A DNA stretch of 21,299 bases, taken from positions 1 through 21,299 of the IMG/VR virus record IMGVR_UViG_3300009130_000163, one strand, 5' to 3'. Of this stretch, positions 1 to 17,235 are shown piece after piece. The DNA is from a virus. A program made the translations under genes and the position numbers. The notes beneath the pieces are model-generated. The model worked only from the letters and a program-made list of their open reading frames with translations, had not been told where the DNA came from and did no database searches. Position 1 is the stretch's first letter, and every line of letters begins with the position of its first letter.

Positions 1-1223
1 GGCGCAAACGGAAGCGTCACTTGTTTGAATCCGCTTTGAATAGGGTTCGGCGGTGAATTCCATTCGACCAGGTCGTTGTATCTTGCCGCCGCTTCAAAAC
101 CGACATACTCTTGCGCGTCGCGTGTGTATTCAAAGCGGCCAAACGCCGGACGTTCTTCGTCGATCCAATTGAAGCAAACTTCGCCGCCGATCAAATCGCC
201 GGAAGCGTCAAGATCCGAAGTGTTGATCCAGGTTGCCAAATTCAAGAAGAAGTCTTTCCTTTCAAAGATTAATTCGGTTCCAACGATTCGCCAATCAGCA
301 TTAAAGACCGGAATCAAATGTTCGGAAAGTAGTTGTTCAAGCGTCAAGATCGGTTCATTGCCGGAAATCAACGATTGATTTGTTGAATTTTGATCGCGGC
401 CTTTTTCAACCGGCGCCGAAAACAACGCGACGTTGTAATAAATTGACGAAGGATCGTTCAAAATTGAACTTTGGAAGGTCAATCCGCATTTGTCGCAAAC
501 GTTGTTTATATAGTCGCGCAGATACGGCGAAGGGTGAAATCGACCGCATTGAATGAACTTGTCTTGAACTTCGTCCATTGACCAAAGGATCAATTCGATC
601 GTCGCGACCGGATTGACGAAGGTTCCGGAACAATCCGGCGGCGAAACGCCTGGAATGATCGCAAGGATCGCCGAAATCGTCAAACAAATCGAATAAACGA
701 TCGAAAATAAAAGGAAAACACTAATGACAAGCGGAATCAACGTTCCGATCGTTGCCAGGTTGAAACCCCAAGCCGCGAAGATTCCGGCAACCTGGATAAA
801 AGCCGGACGCGTTTCCAGGCAATACCTAACGGCCGGGTGTTGACGGTCCTTGAAACCGGCGTGATTGTCATAAATTAACGTTGATTTAACACAATTCAGC
901 GCTTCCGGTTCTTCGATCACTTGACAAGTCGCGGAACATATCGGTTCGCACCAATCAACCGCGTCGCCGCGAATAACGCCTTCAAAGACCGCTTCTTCGC
1001 AACATTCGTCGTAAACTTTGACGTCTATTTTGTTGACAAAACCGTTCGGATCGTCAATCAAGACCGACTTGATCAGATCAAAACCGTCGTCAAAAAAGGT
1101 CAATTCCGACGAAAACTTCTTCGTTGTCCGGTGTTCTTCGGTTTGTCGCGAAATCGTGACTTCGAATTTTTCGGTTCCTTCGATCCGTCCGGTCAACAAT
1201 ACGCCGTTAAATTCAATCTTCAT
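1..1223 (-). CDS. Large tail protein downstream of the tape measure (3' end cut by window edge)
   Basis: An open frame runs from an ATG at 1223 to the left edge with no stop, giving about 407 residues of an incomplete protein. Its ATG overlaps the tape measure stop in an ATGA arrangement, so the two are translationally coupled. In siphoviruses the gene after the tape measure usually encodes the distal tail or baseplate hub protein, and that is the inferred role; I recognise no family from sequence alone. The first 130 residues look beta-rich with several cysteines (C74, C75, C92, C96, C100, C111). Residues about 142-192 form one or two strongly hydrophobic segments, and a CxxC (VCDKCG) lies near 243-246. 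A membrane-like segment inside a tail protein is odd and could relate to host membrane penetration. Confidence 0.82.
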   Translation of the reverse strand, partial: MKIEFNGVLLTGRIEGTEKFEVTISRQTEEHRTTKKFSSELTFFDDGFDLIKSVLIDDPNGFVNKIDVKVYDECCEEAVFEGVIRGDAVDWCEPICSATCQVIEEPEALNCVKSTLIYDNHAGFKDRQHPAVRYCLETRPAFIQVAGIFAAWGFNLATIGTLIPLVISVFLLFSIVYSICLTISAILAIIPGVSPPDCSGTFVNPVATIELILWSMDEVQDKFIQCGRFHPSPYLRDYINNVCDKCGLTFQSSILNDPSSIYYNVALFSAPVEKGRDQNSTNQSLISGNEPILTLEQLLSEHLIPVFNADWRIVGTELIFERKDFFLNLATWINTSDLDASGDLIGGEVCFNWIDEERPAFGRFEYTRDAQEYVGFEAAARYNDLVEWNSPPNPIQSGFKQVTLPFA

Positions 1224-4200
1224 GTCGCTTTGTTTCGAATTCGTTGGTCTTTGAATCGCATTGTTGAAACGATTCCGTTGATTCCGCGTTCGTCAATGCT
1301 CAATTGAAGCCGGTCTTGCTTCTTGATCGCCTTTTCGATCCGGTCCAACTTCGCGTCAAATCCGCTATTTTGTACAACGATTAATTGTTCGTTCAATCCT
1401 TGTGTCAAGAAAGGGTTCCGGCCTTTGTGAATGTCTTCAAATATCGGTCTAAATTTCCGCGTCTTGTCCTGGTCGAATACAAATTCGCCTTTGTGAACGG
1501 TTCCGGCCGATTCATATTTTCCGCCGTCGCCGGTATAACCGCCTTCAGCAAATCCGCCGGCGGCCGCTTGTGCTTGTGCTTTTGCAGCAACCAGTCCGGC
1601 CGCAAGTGCGATCAATGTCGCCGCAACCGTAAAAGGCGCCGCCGCGCCGCCTTCGGCCGCCGCTTTTGAAATTGCGATCATTGAATTGACAACAAGTTCA
1701 ACGGCTGCAAGCGCTTGTTGTTGTCGAACGAATTTTTCGCGCTTTTTCTGAAGTTCTGAAAGACGTTTTTCTTCGGCTTCCAACAATGCGACGTTTCCTT
1801 CTTCAGCCAATTCGACCGCGCGTTCGACGCGCCGTTCTTGTGCTTCGATCGCGGTGTCTGTTTGCTTGATCTGCAAGTCTATTATTTGACCGATCAACTT
1901 TTCGGTTTCTGAAAGGACGTCTTTCAAACCGTCGACGATTATGTCTTTCCTTTGTTGCGATTGCTTCTTTTCGTCTTCGGTTTGATCCTTATTGAAATCG
2001 TGGATCTTGTCGTTGAAGTCTTGTCGCGCTTTGAGAATGTCAAGATCGGCTTGTTTGTTGATCAAGATCCGTTCTTCTTTGGTCAATCCTTCTTCCTTTA
2101 GTTCAAAATCACGTTGTTTCTTGATCTGCTTGACCGTTAGATCGAATTGTTCGTTCAAATTGGCGTCGATCAATCCTTTGTTGAAGCCAAGTTCGCGTTT
2201 AAGATTGTCGCGTTCGGCTTTGGACGTTGACTTGATCAAATTGATCTTCAATTGTTTGCGTTCTTCAAGAAGACGTTCTTCTTCGTTGGACAATATTTCG
2301 ATTTGCCGTTCAAGTTCGACTTGTTCGATCTCTGAAATTGTCTTCGCGCGGTCCTTTGCAGCGTCTTCGCGAATGTCGGAAATCGCTTCTTGTGTCTTTG
2401 CTTCGATTTGCTTGATCTTTTCGTCCTGGATCAACTTGAACAAGGCCGCTTCTTTTGCGCCTAATTGACCGGCGGCGCGCGCTTTGTCAACGCGGTCTTT
2501 GATCGCATTTCGAATGATCACTTTTTCCGCTTTGGCCGCTTCCTTCAACTTTTCGATTTCTTCTTCCAGGTTCTTCGGATCAATGAACGAAACCGCTTGT
2601 TTTTTTGTTTCAAGTTTTGCTTTTCGAAGTTCGCGTTGAAGGTCTAAAAGGATTGATTTGATCTTTGACGCCTTCAACGGCGCGTCGTCAAATACATTTC
2701 CGAAGTCAAAGTCTTCGAAATCACCTTCAAGCGCAAGAAGCGCTTCTTCGATTTCGCGGATTTGATTGACTTGCTCAACCTGAAACCGTGCAAGCAACTT
2801 CGGCCGGACGCCGGGCGCAAGGTCCGCGACCGACGGCGCGCCTTGCGCCGCTAAATCGCTTATTGTTTGTGCAAGTTGTTTGGATTCGGCTTCAGCGCCT
2901 AATATAGTTGATCGGAATAGTTCCTTTTGGTTATCGCTTAAACCCTTATGAACATTCAAAAACGCTTCGGTGATTCCTTTTTCGGCCAATTTTGGATCTG
3001 AAATCAAGACTTCGCGCAATTCGGCGGTTGATAATTCGGACAAATCTTTGATTTCACGAAGCGCAATATTGGCGGCAAGTTTTGTTTGTTCCGGAAGTTT
3101 ATTGAATAGATCCTTCGCGACAATTGCGCCGAGTGTGTCGCCGAGTTTTTCAGTCAATTCGATTTCTTCGGTCAACAATTTCGTGATTTCGGCTTGTTTG
3201 ATCTGAAGGAAGATCCTTTGACGAAGTGATTCGATGTATTTTTGATATTGCGCGTCCAATTGTGCAATGAATTTCTTTTCGTCGGACAAGTTTTTCAACG
3301 TCAATCCGTATTTTGAATTGATTTCGGTCATTAATTCCGACCGTTCTTTCGATCCGGCGTTCGTGTTCTTTAATTGCCGGATCATTAACTTCAATTCGGC
3401 GCCTTCTTCGGCGACCTTCTTGATCGTTTCGTCGCGGACCGTGTTCAATGCTTCTTCCTTCCTGGTCAAGTCGCTTACTTCGTCGCCGAATTCGGCCGTT
3501 GAAAGTGTCGCTTCGTCGGCGGAATCTGAAAAGTCTAAAAGGAAAGACGCCGCAATCGAAACGCCGGATAACAACAATCCAAGCGGATTCGATCGAATTG
3601 CAGCGCTAAAAGCGCGCGTCGCAACCGTTCCGGCGATTGTGCTTGCCGTGACCGCCTTTTGAACTATGTTTTGTGCGTTCATTGTTCTAATGTGATACAA
3701 CCTTTGTGCGGCGGCGAAACGTTGCGCCAACGCAGCGCCGCGCGTAGCTAATGAAGACAACGTCGTTTGAATCCGATTAAAAATCATTATTTGTGATTGC
3801 CTGGTCAAAGCGCCAACCAATAACGAAACGGCGCCGGTGAATAGCGCGATCGCCTTCCGGTTATTATTGAAGAACAAACCGAAGTTCTGAAAGGCGTTGA
3901 TCACCTTGAAGGCGACTTCAAGAAGCGAATTGAAGACCGGAAGAAGACCTTGACCGATTTCGCGCATTAAAAGACCGAAATTTCCTTGAAGCGTCGAAAT
4001 CCGGCCGGCGGTCGTTTGTGACAACGCTTCGGTCAATCCGAAGAATTTTCCGCCTTCACCGGTCAACGAAGCGAACGCGGCTTCCAGGTTCGAAAAGGAA
4101 ATTTGACCTTCGGATCCTAATTTTTTGACTTGACTTTCAGAAACGCCGAATTGTTTCGCGAATTCCTGGATTACCGGAACGCCGGCTTCGGTCAATTGAT

Positions 4201-4720
4201 TAATGTCTTCAGCGAAAAGGGTTCCTTGTACCTTCGCTTTTCCGAAGATCACGGCTAATTCGTTGAAGTCTTTTCCGGTTGCCGAAGATACGTCACCTAC
4301 CTGACGAAGTGACGTTTCGAGTTTATCGGTTTCAATACCAAACGCAAGAAGCGCTTTTCCGGCGTTTTGTACTTGTTCCGGCGTGAACGGTGTCGAAACG
4401 GAAAGATCTTCAAGTTGTTTCAAGACCTTTTCGGCTTCCTTTGTCGATCCTAAAAACGTGGAAAAACTTACTTCCAACTTTTCAAAATCCGACGCCGCCG
4501 TGATTGCCGACTTTCCAAGTTTAAACAACGCCGCGCCAACCGCGACCGCGCCAATTGCCGCGCCGACCTTCTTGATTGCGCCGGTCAAGCCGTTAAACTT
4601 CTTTTCGGCTTGTTCGGTATTGTCGCCAATTCCGGAAACCGATCGTTTGACTTCGTCTAATTCCTTGCGAAGTCGTCCGGTTTCGGCTTGTAGTCTGAAT
4701 ACAACGTTTTTAACTGCCAT
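1220..4720 (-). CDS. Tail tape measure protein
   Basis: This 1166-residue protein is the longest in the window and has the build of a siphovirus tape measure protein, which sets tail length and leaves with the DNA. Residues 75-270 match the conserved N-terminal tape-measure region, with phrases such as DFEKLEVSFSTFLGS, ATGKDFNELAVIFGKAKVQG and LFAEDINQLTEAGVP. Long charged coiled-coil stretches fill the middle (about 400-980). A hydrophobic Ala-rich segment near 1030-1080 precedes a Gly-rich turn (GGFAEGGYTGDGG) and GEFVFDQDKTRKF, a common tape-measure C-terminus. At roughly 0.15 nm per residue, the rule known from lambda, the tail would be about 170 nm long. It starts at an ATG three bases after the stop of the chaperone extension and overlaps the next gene by ATGA. 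Confidence 0.96.
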   Translation of the reverse strand: MAVKNVVFRLQAETGRLRKELDEVKRSVSGIGDNTEQAEKKFNGLTGAIKKVGAAIGAVAVGAALFKLGKSAITAASDFEKLEVSFSTFLGSTKEAEKVLKQLEDLSVSTPFTPEQVQNAGKALLAFGIETDKLETSLRQVGDVSSATGKDFNELAVIFGKAKVQGTLFAEDINQLTEAGVPVIQEFAKQFGVSESQVKKLGSEGQISFSNLEAAFASLTGEGGKFFGLTEALSQTTAGRISTLQGNFGLLMREIGQGLLPVFNSLLEVAFKVINAFQNFGLFFNNNRKAIALFTGAVSLLVGALTRQSQIMIFNRIQTTLSSLATRGAALAQRFAAAQRLYHIRTMNAQNIVQKAVTASTIAGTVATRAFSAAIRSNPLGLLLSGVSIAASFLLDFSDSADEATLSTAEFGDEVSDLTRKEEALNTVRDETIKKVAEEGAELKLMIRQLKNTNAGSKERSELMTEINSKYGLTLKNLSDEKKFIAQLDAQYQKYIESLRQRIFLQIKQAEITKLLTEEIELTEKLGDTLGAIVAKDLFNKLPEQTKLAANIALREIKDLSELSTAELREVLISDPKLAEKGITEAFLNVHKGLSDNQKELFRSTILGAEAESKQLAQTISDLAAQGAPSVADLAPGVRPKLLARFQVEQVNQIREIEEALLALEGDFEDFDFGNVFDDAPLKASKIKSILLDLQRELRKAKLETKKQAVSFIDPKNLEEEIEKLKEAAKAEKVIIRNAIKDRVDKARAAGQLGAKEAALFKLIQDEKIKQIEAKTQEAISDIREDAAKDRAKTISEIEQVELERQIEILSNEEERLLEERKQLKINLIKSTSKAERDNLKRELGFNKGLIDANLNEQFDLTVKQIKKQRDFELKEEGLTKEERILINKQADLDILKARQDFNDKIHDFNKDQTEDEKKQSQQRKDIIVDGLKDVLSETEKLIGQIIDLQIKQTDTAIEAQERRVERAVELAEEGNVALLEAEEKRLSELQKKREKFVRQQQALAAVELVVNSMIAISKAAAEGGAAAPFTVAATLIALAAGLVAAKAQAQAAAGGFAEGGYTGDGGKYESAGTVHKGEFVFDQDKTRKFRPIFEDIHKGRNPFLTQGLNEQLIVVQNSGFDAKLDRIEKAIKKQDRLQLSIDERGINGIVSTMRFKDQRIRNKAT

Positions 4721-4723
4721 AGC

Positions 4724-5068
4724 TTAAGTATTTGAAGAAGTTCTTTTCGCGGTCCTGGAAGACTTGACTTCACCTTGATCGCTTGATCCTTCGATCGCGG
4801 CGTTCTTTTCGTCTACAATCCGTAACCAGGTGTTGACCGTTGAATAATAGTTTTCGACCGACATATTTTCCAGGTGTGCAACTTCCGAAGGTCTTGATTC
4901 ACAGATCATTTGATTCAATAAATTTATGTCTTCAATGTATCGGCCGACATAGTCGCCGACAAATAGCGGTTTATCCGGTCGGCGACCGCCTTGTTTTGTT
5001 TCAAATACTTTTGGAAATCGGCTTCGGATAGTTCTGAAAACTTCGTTGTGAGTAGGTAAACTCTTGAC
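4724..5068 (-). CDS. Tail assembly chaperone, -1 frameshift extension (GT-like part)
   Basis: This frame is open from the T9 run at 5069-5077 down to a TAA at 4724-4726 and lies in the -1 frame relative to the upstream 192-residue chaperone. Read after a -1 slip it adds 114 residues beginning VKSLPTHNEVFRT and ending SSRTAKRTSSNT, for a fusion of 259 residues. Within it the first ATG is at 4909 (MICESRPS), with a TTG at 4918, so a 61-64 residue stand-alone product is possible but weaker: the frame stays open for about 50 codons upstream of that ATG, as expected for a frameshift extension. The place, between chaperone and tape measure, is where lambda-type G/GT pairs sit. The extension probably links the chaperone to tail tube subunits. 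Confidence 0.75.
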   Translation of the reverse strand, partial: VKSLPTHNEVFRTIRSRFPKVFETKQGGRRPDKPLFVGDYVGRYIEDINLLNQMICESRPSEVAHLENMSVENYYSTVNTWLRIVDEKNAAIEGSSDQGEVKSSRTAKRTSSNT

Positions 5069-5502
5069 AAAAAAAAACTTTTCGCGTCCGAATCTTCTTC
5101 CATTAATTCGCGCTTTTTCGCCTTCCAGGTTTCCGAAGGTTCCGCCGGATCTTCGCCGTCCAAAATGAAGTAAATCGACGCCAATTCAAGAAGCGTTTGT
5201 TCTTCACCAATGAAATCAAGCCGGAATTCGATTTCGGCCAATATGTTAAACAGACCGACAACGTTTCCTTTGTTCGCGTGATCCTTCATTTTTTCGATCA
5301 ATTCCTTCAAGATCGGCTTTGTCAAGTTCATGTCCGCAAACCTGGTCGCGACTTCGGCCGCGATTGCGCGTTTCGCCGGTATCGACATAATATCGGCGAA
5401 TTCAAACCATTCGTTTTCGTTGTTGTCCGTGTAGATCTTTGTCAAATTATATTCAGGAATCAGATCGGAATCCGTCTTCCTGGACCGTTTAAATAGCTTC
5501 AT
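4924..5502 (-). CDS. Tail assembly chaperone, zero-frame product (G-like)
   Basis: A 192-residue, mainly helical, acidic protein directly upstream of the tape measure gene, the position of lambda gpG-type chaperones that bind the tape measure and guide tail tube polymerisation. There is little primary sequence conservation in this family, so the call rests on position, size, predicted helices and the frameshift signal inside it. Codons 142-145 (Ser-Phe-Phe-Leu) cross the nine-T slippery run. Termination in frame gives ...SATMSADTLKT; a -1 slip gives the longer product. The ATG at 5502 is preceded by the AAAATCGAAA leader and by TATCTTTG, which matches the Bacteroidota -7 element, so it may begin its own transcript. 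It follows the terminase large subunit with no head genes between. Confidence 0.85.
   Translation of the reverse strand: MKLFKRSRKTDSDLIPEYNLTKIYTDNNENEWFEFADIMSIPAKRAIAAEVATRFADMNLTKPILKELIEKMKDHANKGNVVGLFNILAEIEFRLDFIGEEQTLLELASIYFILDGEDPAEPSETWKAKKRELMEEDSDAKSFFLSRVYLLTTKFSELSEADFQKYLKQNKAVADRINRYLSATMSADTLKT
5069..5077 (-). other. Slippery run for programmed -1 ribosomal frameshifting
   Basis: The coding strand reads AGT TTT TTT TTG TCA in the chaperone frame, a run of nine T. It contains U UUU UUU and U UUU UUG heptamers of the X XXY YYZ type in the right phase. A -1 slip enters the frame ending at 4724. I did not identify a convincing stimulatory hairpin or pseudoknot just downstream. 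Polymerase slippage on the same run could give the same result. Confidence 0.75.
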
Positions 5503-5515
5503 TTTCGATTTTTTT

Positions 5516-5523
5516 CAAAGATA
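5516..5523 (-). promoter_or_regulatory. Possible promoter -7 element before the tail chaperone
   Basis: The minus strand reads TATCTTTG, a full match to the Bacteroidota -7 element TAnnTTTG, about 14 bases before the chaperone ATG. I could not find a good TTTG -33 element at the usual 19-21 base spacing, so this is tentative. Confidence 0.3.
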
Positions 5524-5534
5524 GGGAAAATTGA

Positions 5535-6812
5535 TCAACGGAATTTAACGAAGTCATGATTGAAGGTCCAAAGGAAATAACGAAAACAATCAAGAAGGTG
5601 ACTTTTGCGCGCGTCTTTTGTCTTGTTGATTTCGCCGGTTTCCGTTGCTTCAACGGTTTCCAGGTCTTCGATCAAGTACATGCAACCGGCGTCAACGCTG
5701 AAATCTTCATGATTCGCAAGGATTGAATTGCACAAAACGCGTGAATTCTTGATCGACGGATTCACGGACGGAACGCGGAATTGATTCTTTGAAAGATCCA
5801 ATTCGTCACGAATGATCGTATAATAATTCAAGGCGCCTTTCGTGATCGCATTTCGGGCCGATCCGGACGCGTCACCGGTAACAATGAAGTAAACGTCGCC
5901 GAATTCAACGCGGATCGCTTCACAAAGTCGGTAAATGTCACTATTACGAAGGCGGAATTCCTGGAAGATCCGGATCGTATCGTCGTAACTTTGGCCGGCA
6001 ATGCATGTGATAGGATCGACATTGAAGTCAAACGACAAGATAATCGGTTCGGATTTGTCAATTTCAACGCCTTTCTTGACCGTTTTCCGCTTGTCGAACG
6101 CATAAAGGAACGGCCGATCAATATCAAGAACGTTCCAATCGCCGCGAACGAATACGGCCTTTGTCACTTCGTCCAGGTTTTCAAGGCCGTCAAGGTATTC
6201 TTCCGGAAGTGAAGGATTGTCTTCCATTGTCGCGCGTAAATAGAAGTATTCCTTTCGAAGTGTGCCGTCGATAAACGGTTCGTGAAATTCGTGTTTGGTC
6301 CAATTGTTCGACGGATTGCAAGTCGTCAAGATCAACGGTTTCGGTTGAAGATCCAGGTCCGGAATAATATGTCGGCCGGCCCGAAGTTTACACTTTTCGA
6401 AGGTCTTCTTTTGGATCTCTTGACCTTCTTCTATCAAAAATCCGTTCGCTTCGATTCCGTCAAACCTGGTCAAGTTCTTGTCCTGATTGAAGTTTTCCGG
6501 AAAGAATGTCAATTGTGAACCGTTTCGAAACGTGACGATTTGATCGGTTTGATTGTATGATTTGATAAATGATCGCGGACACAACTTCAGGAACGACGGA
6601 ATTGTCGTTCGTTTAAGCGTCGGAAGCGATTCACGGACAACAAACCAACGTGAACCAGGAAAGAACTTCGCCAATAGCACAAAGATCGCTAAACATACGT
6701 AAGTTTTGCCGCCGCCGGCCGCGCCGCCGTACATTAAACAACGGTATTTGAAGGAAAGAACCGCGTCAATGAATTCTTCTTGCCGCTTGTGCGGTTCAAA
6801 AACAACGTTCAA
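5535..6812 (-). CDS. terL: Terminase large subunit
   Basis: This is the ATPase-nuclease motor that packages DNA into the prohead. Numbering from the chosen start (425 residues): Walker A GGAAGGGKT at 29-37, Walker B FLIEE at 125-129, a coupling motif TTCNPS at 163-168, then an RNase H-fold nuclease with acidic residues in SFDFN (D262), VTGDASG (D314) and SHLLDCFRYF (D408). I chose a TTG at 6812 because it overlaps the small-subunit stop as TTGA, like the many ATGA overlaps here. The frame stays open to another TTG at 6887, which would add 25 unconserved residues and overlap the small subunit by 79 bases. No portal gene follows: the next gene is the tail chaperone. Confidence 0.96.
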   Translation of the reverse strand: MNVVFEPHKRQEEFIDAVLSFKYRCLMYGGAAGGGKTYVCLAIFVLLAKFFPGSRWFVVRESLPTLKRTTIPSFLKLCPRSFIKSYNQTDQIVTFRNGSQLTFFPENFNQDKNLTRFDGIEANGFLIEEGQEIQKKTFEKCKLRAGRHIIPDLDLQPKPLILTTCNPSNNWTKHEFHEPFIDGTLRKEYFYLRATMEDNPSLPEEYLDGLENLDEVTKAVFVRGDWNVLDIDRPFLYAFDKRKTVKKGVEIDKSEPIILSFDFNVDPITCIAGQSYDDTIRIFQEFRLRNSDIYRLCEAIRVEFGDVYFIVTGDASGSARNAITKGALNYYTIIRDELDLSKNQFRVPSVNPSIKNSRVLCNSILANHEDFSVDAGCMYLIEDLETVEATETGEINKTKDARKSHLLDCFRYFLWTFNHDFVKFR

Positions 6813-7360
6813 AACGTGATCGTTTGATTTCCGATCCGGAAAACTTGCGGTTCGGCGTTGATTTCCTGGAATTTGTCTTCGTTCCAATTGGCCGGATCAA
6901 CGTTCTTCAGCGCGAAAATGATCGCGGCGGTTGCCGGTTGAACGTATCTTGATTTTTTGCGCGTCCTGGTTGATACAAGGCGGCCTTTTGAATCGGTCAA
7001 TTGTTCGACTTCTTCTTCGTCTACGTAATAGCCGGTTATTAGTCGCTTAAGGCCATATAAGGCCGTATCGCGGACGCCTTCACGGTTTGCCCGGCCGTTG
7101 TTGTCTTTGGCGTGTTTCTTTAGCGTTGAAATTTCCGAATACTTTTGCGACCAATTTTCGAGAGTTCGCGCGGTGATTCCTTCTTCGTTGCAACAAGATT
7201 CAAGAGTATAATTGCCGGCGGAATAAAGGTCAAGGATCTTTTCCGCCTTTTTGATTTTTTCGGCCTTTGTTCGAAGGTTTCCGGTCGATTTTTTCGGCGC
7301 TTTTTTAGCCGTTTTCGGCTTTGGATCCTTTTCGAACGTCTTTTTTGTGGCGCGCTTCAT
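6809..7360 (-). CDS. terS: Terminase small subunit
   Basis: A 183-residue protein just upstream of and overlapping terL. A lysine-rich tail (residues 1-40) precedes a helix-turn-helix region at about 45-75 (YTLESCCNEEGITARTLENW) expected to recognise the packaging site. A charged middle region follows, and then PATAAIIFALKNVDPANW near 142-159, a phrase typical of terminase small subunits, where it precedes the C-terminal segment contacting the large subunit and portal. The known role is to bind the concatemer and start cutting by TerL. The start is the ATG at 7360. The leader includes TAAATTTG, a match to the TAnnTTTG promoter element, only a few bases before the ATG. Confidence 0.9.
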   Translation of the reverse strand: MKRATKKTFEKDPKPKTAKKAPKKSTGNLRTKAEKIKKAEKILDLYSAGNYTLESCCNEEGITARTLENWSQKYSEISTLKKHAKDNNGRANREGVRDTALYGLKRLITGYYVDEEEVEQLTDSKGRLVSTRTRKKSRYVQPATAAIIFALKNVDPANWNEDKFQEINAEPQVFRIGNQTITF

Positions 7361-9657: not shown

Positions 9658-9782
9658 AGCGTTATCAAGTAAATAGTTGCGACAACGGCAAAAAGCGTCA
9701 TTAAAAATATAAACAATCTTCCGGCGCGTTTTTCTTCTTCTTCGTCGGTTCCTGGAATCATTTCGGTCGTTTTTATTTTCAT
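9654..9782 (-). CDS. Single-pass membrane micro-protein (42 aa)
   Basis: A 42-residue ORF not much longer than its membrane helix. An acidic head (MIPGTDEEEEKRAGR) precedes a hydrophobic segment (LFIFLMTLFAVVATIYLITL). The ATG at 9782 follows the AAAATCGAAA leader closely, and the stop overlaps the next ATG as ATGA. These two signals make it a convincing gene despite its size. The predicted topology has the acidic N-terminus on one side and almost no C-terminal tail. Role unknown. Confidence 0.72.
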   Translation of the reverse strand: MKIKTTEMIPGTDEEEEKRAGRLFIFLMTLFAVVATIYLITL

Positions 9783-9853
9783 TTTTTCGATTTTTTTGGT
9801 TGTCGCAATATACTTTTTTTATCTATTCCGTCGCGTTTATTGAAATTTACTTT

Positions 9854-10243
9854 TCAAAATTGGAACGGAAGATCGTCCGCCGGAAGACTTTCTTCGGCTT
9901 GTTGAAGATTTGTTTCTTTTGGTTTCGCTGACAAAAATTCGATTTCGTCGGCGATCGTTTCAACAAAAAGACGTTCGTTTCCTTCCTGGTCGGTGTATTG
10001 TTTCTTTTTTAGCCGGCCAATTACAAGCAATTTCGATCCTTTTTTCACGTAGGATTCGACCAGGTCGGCCAATTTGCCAAAGGCGACAACGTTGAACCAG
10101 GTTGTTTCTTCTTGTTTTTCACCGTTTTCGTTCTTTCGGTATTCGTTGACCGCGATTGAAATCTTCGCGATCTTCATTCCGGAATCGGTCGTTTTGACTT
10201 CCGGATCTTGTCCGGTATTACCGGCGATCATGTGTTTGTTCAT
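9854..10243 (-). CDS. ssb: Single-stranded DNA-binding protein
   Basis: A 129-residue SSB. The OB fold covers residues 1-105 and carries family phrases: GNTGQDPEVKTTDSGMKIAK, ETTWFNVVAFGKLADLVESY, VKKGSKLLVIGRLK and YTDQEGNERLFVETIADEIE. A short linker ends in the acidic tip DDLPFQF, like the DDDIPF-type tail that docks partner proteins in bacterial SSBs. It coats single-stranded DNA during replication and recombination, which fits its operon with the Bet/RecT annealing protein. ATG at 10243. About 70 non-coding bases follow its stop before the next gene. Confidence 0.97.
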   Translation of the reverse strand: MNKHMIAGNTGQDPEVKTTDSGMKIAKISIAVNEYRKNENGEKQEETTWFNVVAFGKLADLVESYVKKGSKLLVIGRLKKKQYTDQEGNERLFVETIADEIEFLSAKPKETNLQQAEESLPADDLPFQF

Positions 10244-10244
10244 T

Positions 10245-10460
10245 TTATTTGATTTTTGGTTTGATTAACTGATTATTTGGAACGATCAATTTCGATTCGT
10301 CCGCTATTGCGCCGACATTGATCAACCATTCGTTGAAGTCCGGCGCGCTTATTTTGTCGCCTTCGTCGCGTTCCTGGTTGATCTGTTCGACTGTTATGAT
10401 CGTTCTTTTGTATTCGCATTTCAGCAAGTGCAAAAGCGCGTTATTTGCGTTTAATTTCAT
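10245..10460 (-). CDS. Small hypothetical protein
   Basis: A 71-residue protein between SSB and a second small gene. The start is the ATG at 10460, overlapping the preceding stop by 20 bases; the stop is one base before the ssb ATG. The sequence (LLKCEYKRTIITVEQINQER, then DFNEWLINVGAIADES) suggests a small alpha/beta domain. No family recognised. Confidence 0.65.
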   Translation of the reverse strand: MKLNANNALLHLLKCEYKRTIITVEQINQERDEGDKISAPDFNEWLINVGAIADESKLIVPNNQLIKPKIK

Positions 10461-10620
10461 CGTTCAATATTTCTGCAAGCGTGTAATTTTCAAGGCCGTG
10501 TATCACTAAAAAAATGAAACGTGCGATTTCAGCGTTCGCGGCCCAAACGAACGCGTCAAACCAAACCGGAAGAAGATCTTCCATGTCCAGGATTGCGCCG
10601 TATTTGATCAATTTATTCAA
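10441..10620 (-). CDS. Small hypothetical protein, start uncertain
   Basis: A frame open from 10692 to a TAA at 10441. There is no early ATG. A TTG at 10620 overlaps the upstream stop (TTGAATAA) and gives 59 residues; a TTG at 10692 gives 83 but overlaps the preceding gene by 80 bases. The product is aromatic and hydrophobic (LLPVWFDAFVWAANAEIARF) and ends with the basic NDEIKRK. Family and function unknown. Confidence 0.55.
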   Translation of the reverse strand: MNKLIKYGAILDMEDLLPVWFDAFVWAANAEIARFIFLVIHGLENYTLAEILNDEIKRK

Positions 10621-16495: not shown

Positions 16496-16912
16496 TTATT
16501 GTTCAATATCGAAGTGTTTGAGCATGAAATACAAAACAACGTGTGCGATCAGCGCCGAAGGTATTAACCAAATGAAAGAAAGATCCCAAAAATACCAATA
16601 TACAACGAAGACCAGGTTCGCGACATAAACGTTCATGCATATCGTACAAGCGCCTAACGGCTTGTAAAGGAACCGAAACGGATTTTTGGCGTTTTTGTGA
16701 AAATATTTGTTAAGAAACCGGATCCAAAACGACAAGACGTTTCCTTCTCGGAAACAAAAGTCCAGGAAGAAGGAAACAAGCGCCGCAACAAAACCGACAA
16801 GACCGGCTTCAAAAACCGGCCGGAACCAATTGAAATCACGAACGAAAAAAATCGCCGTAAGGCCGGCCAAAATTCCAAGAAGGAAAAAGGCCCAAATTTT
16901 TAAATTTTTCAT
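16496..16912 (-). CDS. Multi-pass membrane protein, last gene of late operon
   Basis: A 138-residue integral membrane protein with about four hydrophobic segments: LKIWAFFLLGILAGLTAIFF, PVFEAGLVGFVAALVSFFLD, VYVANLVFVVYWYFWDLSFI and IWLIPSALIAHVVLYFML. Between the second and third lies a basic loop with GACTICMNVY, a CxxC at the membrane edge. No known family is assigned; it may be a lysis or superinfection-related protein. The ATG at 16912 is preferred over a TTG at 16927, as an A-run precedes it. It ends just before the terminator. Confidence 0.75.
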   Translation of the reverse strand: MKNLKIWAFFLLGILAGLTAIFFVRDFNWFRPVFEAGLVGFVAALVSFFLDFCFREGNVLSFWIRFLNKYFHKNAKNPFRFLYKPLGACTICMNVYVANLVFVVYWYFWDLSFIWLIPSALIAHVVLYFMLKHFDIEQ

Positions 16913-16920
16913 TTTTTTTT

Positions 16921-17235
16921 TTAGCAATTACCGACTTCAGAATGAACCAAAAACACACAAGCGCCGCCGGGCGAAGTTATATAATTGAATCCTGGTTGCG
17001 GTGAACAAGGCGCGATTTGTGGGACCTTGATCTTGATCTTGATTTCGCCGGATTCGGTGAAGTTGTTTGTCAAAACAATGTCCGCGCCGCCGGCAAAAGT
17101 GACCGTTTCGCGAACGGTTAAACCGCGCGAAGTTATTTCGAATATATAGTCGCCGTCACAATACGCGACAACGCCAAAATCAATAACGTCGCCGGGCAAG
17201 AAACAACCTAAATCTTCATTACAATTACAATTCAT
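16921..17235 (-). CDS. Cysteine-rich small protein, probable virion component
   Basis: A 104-residue protein that begins MNCNCNEDLGCFLPGD and ends VGNC, with seven cysteines. The middle is beta-rich (YIFEITSRGLTVRETVTFAG, GEIKIKIKVPQI), like a small Ig-like or jelly-roll domain, perhaps disulphide-stabilised on the virion. The frame is open further upstream, but the ATG at 17235 is chosen because the upstream part covers the neighbouring gene and reads like a shadow. No family recognised. Confidence 0.72.
   Translation of the reverse strand: MNCNCNEDLGCFLPGDVIDFGVVAYCDGDYIFEITSRGLTVRETVTFAGGADIVLTNNFTESGEIKIKIKVPQIAPCSPQPGFNYITSPGGACVFLVHSEVGNC

Follow-up and report, generated by a model that had tools for sequence, protein, structure and literature searches.

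A conserved −1 frameshift at a T run ahead of the tape measure gene in a family of uncultivated phages

Introduction

The 21,299-nucleotide stretch of viral DNA considered here (the ‘window’, taken from IMG/VR virus record IMGVR_UViG_3300009130_000163 and possibly a fragment) carries, directly upstream of its tape measure gene, two overlapping open frames and a run of nine T’s at which a ribosome or a polymerase might pass from one to the other. Does a single gene at this locus produce two proteins, and if so, at which step does the shift in frame occur? The obvious precedent is phage lambda, where G (9711-10133), T (10115-10549) and H (from 10542) follow one another closely; there, G binds the tape measure, and the frameshift product GT is believed to bring in the major tail protein (PMC4493119, PMC5009743). 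Homopolymer slippery motifs (such as the PRFect motif ‘six’ and U_UU.U_UU.Y) are also known, and allow both tRNAs to re-pair after the slip (PMC10885494, PMC4066793).

The type of frameshift at issue is thus already familiar from long-tailed phages, lambda G/GT among them, and the protein family itself is absent from the libraries searched. It is known here from uncultivated phages only, and extends the set of phages in which frameshifting yields two tail-assembly proteins; for annotation, the consequence is that two ORFs belong joined.

Results and Discussion

The locus and its two frames

All of the features that concern us lie on the minus strand. The 0-frame product (‘G-like’, 192 residues) is encoded by an ATG-initiated ORF at 4924..5502, homologous in 188 loci. 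The T9 homopolymer (5069..5077) occupies the third base of codon 142, the whole of codons 143 and 144 and two bases of codon 145, so that the message reads AAA AGT TTT TTT TTG TCA across the site, and it contains a slippery heptamer, T_TTT_TTT, in X_XXY_YYZ phase at 5071..5077. From base 5071, which would be read twice, the −1 frame is open as far as a TAA at 4726-4724; this ‘T-like’ extension (4724..5071) comprises 115 residues after the slip, for a fusion of 259 residues. Only three bases separate its stop from the ATG (4720) of the tape measure gene, a gap that is also short in relatives. The tape measure protein (1220..4720, 1166 aa) is recognized by both PHROG (E=3e-62) and Pfam (TMP_3, E=2e-25). 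On the other side of the chaperone ORF lies the terminase large subunit (5535..6887, identified in PHROG/Pfam searches), and beyond it the small subunit (6809..7360, by library match).

The first-pass annotation of this DNA, which had placed a nine-T run at codons 142-145 of a 192-residue ORF, was correct base for base in its coordinates, as were all of its figures for a −1 frame that stays open to 4724, just ahead of the tape measure ATG, and yields a 259-residue fusion. The spurious ORF that it predicted for any annotation made without the frameshift corresponds to a 64-codon, TTG-initiated ORF at 4918-4724. The T9 run is not rare for DNA of this base composition (the window holds 4 matches, against 17 expected from dinucleotide shuffles), and the case for a frameshift therefore rests on conservation rather than on rarity.

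Conservation of the slip site

A scan of IMG/VR with the chaperone ORF, the tape measure and two alignments found both parts of the gene together at 188 loci, which reduce to 101 distinct 300-nt cores and to 34 clusters at 80% identity. The heptamer T_TTT_TTT is present in phase in all 101 distinct sequences, within runs that differ in length: among 100 tabulated sequences, 51 carry nine T’s (T9), 48 carry seven (T7) and one carries ten, and L021 is likewise T9. At 187 of the 188 loci it is the −1 frame that holds the extension. The exception, L005, has eight T’s (5150-5157) in place of nine in a sequence otherwise near-identical to its relatives, and is most simply regarded as a miscounted run or a defective copy.

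Run-length errors of this kind are common, and might suggest that the two frames are themselves an artefact, the true gene being one continuous frame with ten T’s. That explanation is very improbable: half of the distinct relatives carry only seven T’s, flanked by G or A, and still keep both frames. Moreover, what the 0 frame encodes beyond the slip is itself conserved as protein (S156, S159 and L167 are invariant), and hence both endings are real.

Between the slip and the 0-frame stop, the −1 frame is open in 34 of 34 clusters and the +1 frame in none. When the 0 frame was shuffled among synonymous codons, the per-cluster chance of an open −1 frame ranged from 0.002 to 0.45, and the product of these P values is about 1e-46 if the clusters are treated as independent. 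Past the 0-frame stop, the −1 frame shows a median dN/dS of 0.10, and in the other two frames pN exceeds pS. The first-pass annotation had named stops in the −1 frame of related phages as grounds for abandoning the frameshift, and had proposed an alignment with relatives as a check; no such stop was found in any cluster, the +1 frame being closed in every one, and the homopolymer heptamer and both frames are kept throughout the 101 distinct sequences.

The point at which the two frames begin to constrain one another can also be located. Synonymous differences in the 0 frame, about 0.28 upstream and mostly within 0.22-0.33 there, fall to 0.06-0.19 from the slip codon on, which places the start of the dual-coding stretch (4924..5071 in the window) at the slip site. 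Codons 142-144 show no synonymous difference in 207 pairs; Phe codons elsewhere are divided between TTT (138) and TTC (149), whereas the slip codons never vary synonymously. Upstream of the T run, a stop closes the −1 frame within 30 nt in half of the clusters. Within the extension, residues are invariant from the eighth position after the slip onwards (H8, N9, F12, R18 and F23).

These observations bear upon a further alternative, in which the extension is translated independently, as a small protein with a start codon to itself, and the overlap is open by coincidence. Such a protein could begin at the TTG of the 64-codon ORF (4918-4724), and an ATG is found at extension codon 63 in 25 of the 34 clusters. 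The dual constraint on the overlap nevertheless starts at the slip codons, the invariant residues (from H8) lie far upstream of any frequent start, and no start codon in the −1 frame is conserved near the slip among the clusters. The proposal is largely refuted, and we regard it as scarcely credible. A conserved frameshift that joins two coding frames at the T run is, by contrast, strongly supported by these comparative sequence data.

As a separate matter, one relative (L127, and likewise L171) carries an in-frame TGA (6319-6321 in L127) midway through its 0-frame chaperone ORF, and the sequence to either side of this codon is conserved; the TGA represents either a sequencing error or a recoded stop.

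Downstream RNA structure and the nature of the shift

Among cluster representatives, the 100 nt after the slip site fold more stably than expected (mean z −2.2). The sequences with seven T’s carry a GC-rich stem, GGGCGTTC...GAACGCCC or a close variant of it, with its first arm 7 nt past the heptamer, which is the classic form of a stimulator of ribosomal frameshifting. In an alignment of 47 such relatives (A3, with the arms at columns 15-23 and 81-89), 92.8% of the alignment cells are paired, with compensatory changes, and the covariation score of the stem exceeds all slid controls and is reached by none of 500 shuffles. The corresponding site in the window (4989..5063, minus strand) does not keep the pairing, nor does the window’s T9 clade as a whole keep a stem 5-9 nt past the heptamer; the duplex energy is −3.3 kcal/mol in the window’s clade, against about −17 in the T7 relatives. 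A near stem of the window’s own was considered and rejected: the strong hairpin that the window does have is about 80 nt downstream, beyond the range of the usual stimulators, and the more distant members of the clade that were inspected did not show it.

The reading that we consider likely for the family is that one gene gives two proteins, in the manner of G/GT, through a −1 slip on the ribosome at the T run. Most ribosomes would read through in the 0 frame to give the 192-residue G-like protein, while a minority, their P and A sites both occupied by tRNA-Phe on UUU, would slip back by one base on U_UUU_UUU and continue in the −1 frame to the stop just ahead of the tape measure start, producing the 259-residue GT-like fusion. 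Heptamers of the form U_UU.U_UU.Y are among the efficient −1 sites in E. coli (PMC4066793). A ribosomal slip is preferred because neither the heptamer nor its phase varies within the family, and because the T7 half of it is poorly suited to polymerase slippage; for the T7 relatives, with their covarying stem, comparison of sequences strongly supports a ribosomal shift.

Against the ribosomal reading, the window’s own clade is without the stem, a U9 run can also cause a polymerase to slip, and U_UUU_UUU was ranked far below A_AAA_AAG in older E. coli work (PMC5009743). Transcriptional slippage, in which the polymerase lengthens the transcript of the T9 run by one U (or four) and the fusion then arises by ordinary translation, is accordingly a live rival for this stem-less T9 clade. 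Nine T’s suffice for slippage by a bacterial polymerase (PMC5009743), the window possesses the run of 8-9 or more A/T that marks programmed transcriptional slippage (as its T7 relatives do not), and its clade has no downstream stem. The distribution of stems across the family points in the same direction, with a stem at or below −12 kcal/mol in 14 of 14 T7 clusters against 5 of 20 T9 clusters (Mann-Whitney P=3e-4, kinship ignored). On the tree, however, the run changed between T7 and T9 only about five times, with one independent pair on supported branches, too few for the association to attain significance when kinship is allowed for, and the co-occurrence of T9 and a weak stem is no more than suggestive. 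Also unfavourable to transcriptional slippage are the T7 runs found in half of the family, which fall below the at least 8 nt usual for programmed slippage (PMC3711429), the constant X_XXY_YYZ phase, and the failure to find an upstream hairpin at the slip site (mean z −0.03). Taken over the whole of this evidence, transcriptional slippage is possible but unlikely.

A mixed arrangement is also conceivable, in which the family uses two routes (ribosomal frameshifting on U7 with a stem, and polymerase slippage on U9 without one) with evolutionary switches between them; we hold this to be rather doubtful. Returning to the ribosomal slip, it probably operates in the window record itself as well. 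The ‘programmed −1 frameshift’ of the first-pass annotation can thus be retained as far as the conserved shift is concerned, while its ribosomal step in the stem-less T9 clade is inseparable by sequence from transcriptional slippage. With T7 runs plus a stem and T9 runs side by side in it, the family provides a natural experiment on the trade-off between run length and RNA structure.

Identity of the protein and comparison with known systems

The chaperone ORF matched no family in Pfam or PHROG, and no relative of it was found among INPHARED phages (by tblastn) or in two scans of GTDB genome contigs. Its predicted model (pLDDT 69) consists of two strands followed by helices. The best Foldseek matches (E=0.035) were viral proteins without a name, 158 and 246 aa long; two annotated chaperones appeared only at E of about 0.3-0.5, and the PDB gave no match. 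Tail assembly chaperones of this kind diverge fast, and the absence of detectable similarity is therefore compatible with membership in the G/GT group. The name ‘tail assembly chaperone’ used in the first-pass annotation accordingly draws on the position beside the tape measure and on the frameshift architecture, and gained nothing from sequence libraries or the fold search. By gene position and frameshift design, on grounds other than homology, we infer a G/GT-type chaperone; by analogy with lambda, the short form would coat the tape measure protein during tail assembly and the extension of the long form would recruit the tail tube protein. This function, like a product ratio in which only a minority of ribosomes shift, is presumed from the comparison.

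As in lambda gpG/gpGT, the tape measure is immediately preceded by two overlapping frames, the −1 shift falling late in the first of them, and this layout, proposed at the outset, is kept in the window and its relatives. The two systems are linked by no library match between their sequences, and they differ in the slip site itself, where, as had been suggested, the homopolymer U_UUU_UUU takes the place of lambda’s GGGAAAG (T_TTT_TTT being in phase in every distinct sequence). Unlike lambda, the window shifts 48 codons ahead of the 0-frame stop, creating a long overlap (148 nt). Compared with PRFect motif ‘six’ and the E. coli sites, the homopolymer is here fixed across a whole phage family, in both its T7-with-stem and its T9 forms; in the incomplete literature covered, we found no paper that names a T/U-run slippery site in a phage chaperone.

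The best full-length cultured relative of the tape measure belongs to a Cellulophaga phage, with Bacteroides phages next, which suggests a host among the Bacteroidota. Cellulophaga phi39:1 (gp19/gp20) and Bacteroides phage jmh47_hp, whose tape measures are related, also have open overlapping frames just upstream, and a profile search of both left the chaperone unmatched. The arrangements differ in detail: in phi39:1 an A7 run lies near the end of gp19 and the +1 frame is used by the ORF that follows, and jmh47_hp lacks any T homopolymer heptamer in phase.

Gene order and other observations

Directly upstream of the chaperone, the window and its close relatives have the terminase large subunit, and in a closed-looking, 34.8-kb relative (G001, which holds L221 and L222) a portal-like gene is found on the downstream side of the tape measure, from which it follows that the tail block precedes the head genes. 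The resulting order (terminase, chaperone, tape measure, portal-like gene; 4720-6887 in the window, and G001) is unusual. L163 departs from it, with a 395-aa ORF between the terminase and the chaperone. The record containing L163 and L230 (IMGVR_UViG_3300020017_000024) carries two cassettes of chaperone and tape measure, about 6.6 kb apart; since the tape measures are 100% identical, the second is probably an assembly duplicate. Elsewhere in the window, a run of eleven T’s on the plus strand (16912-16922) is read as A11 near the start of a minus-strand ORF.
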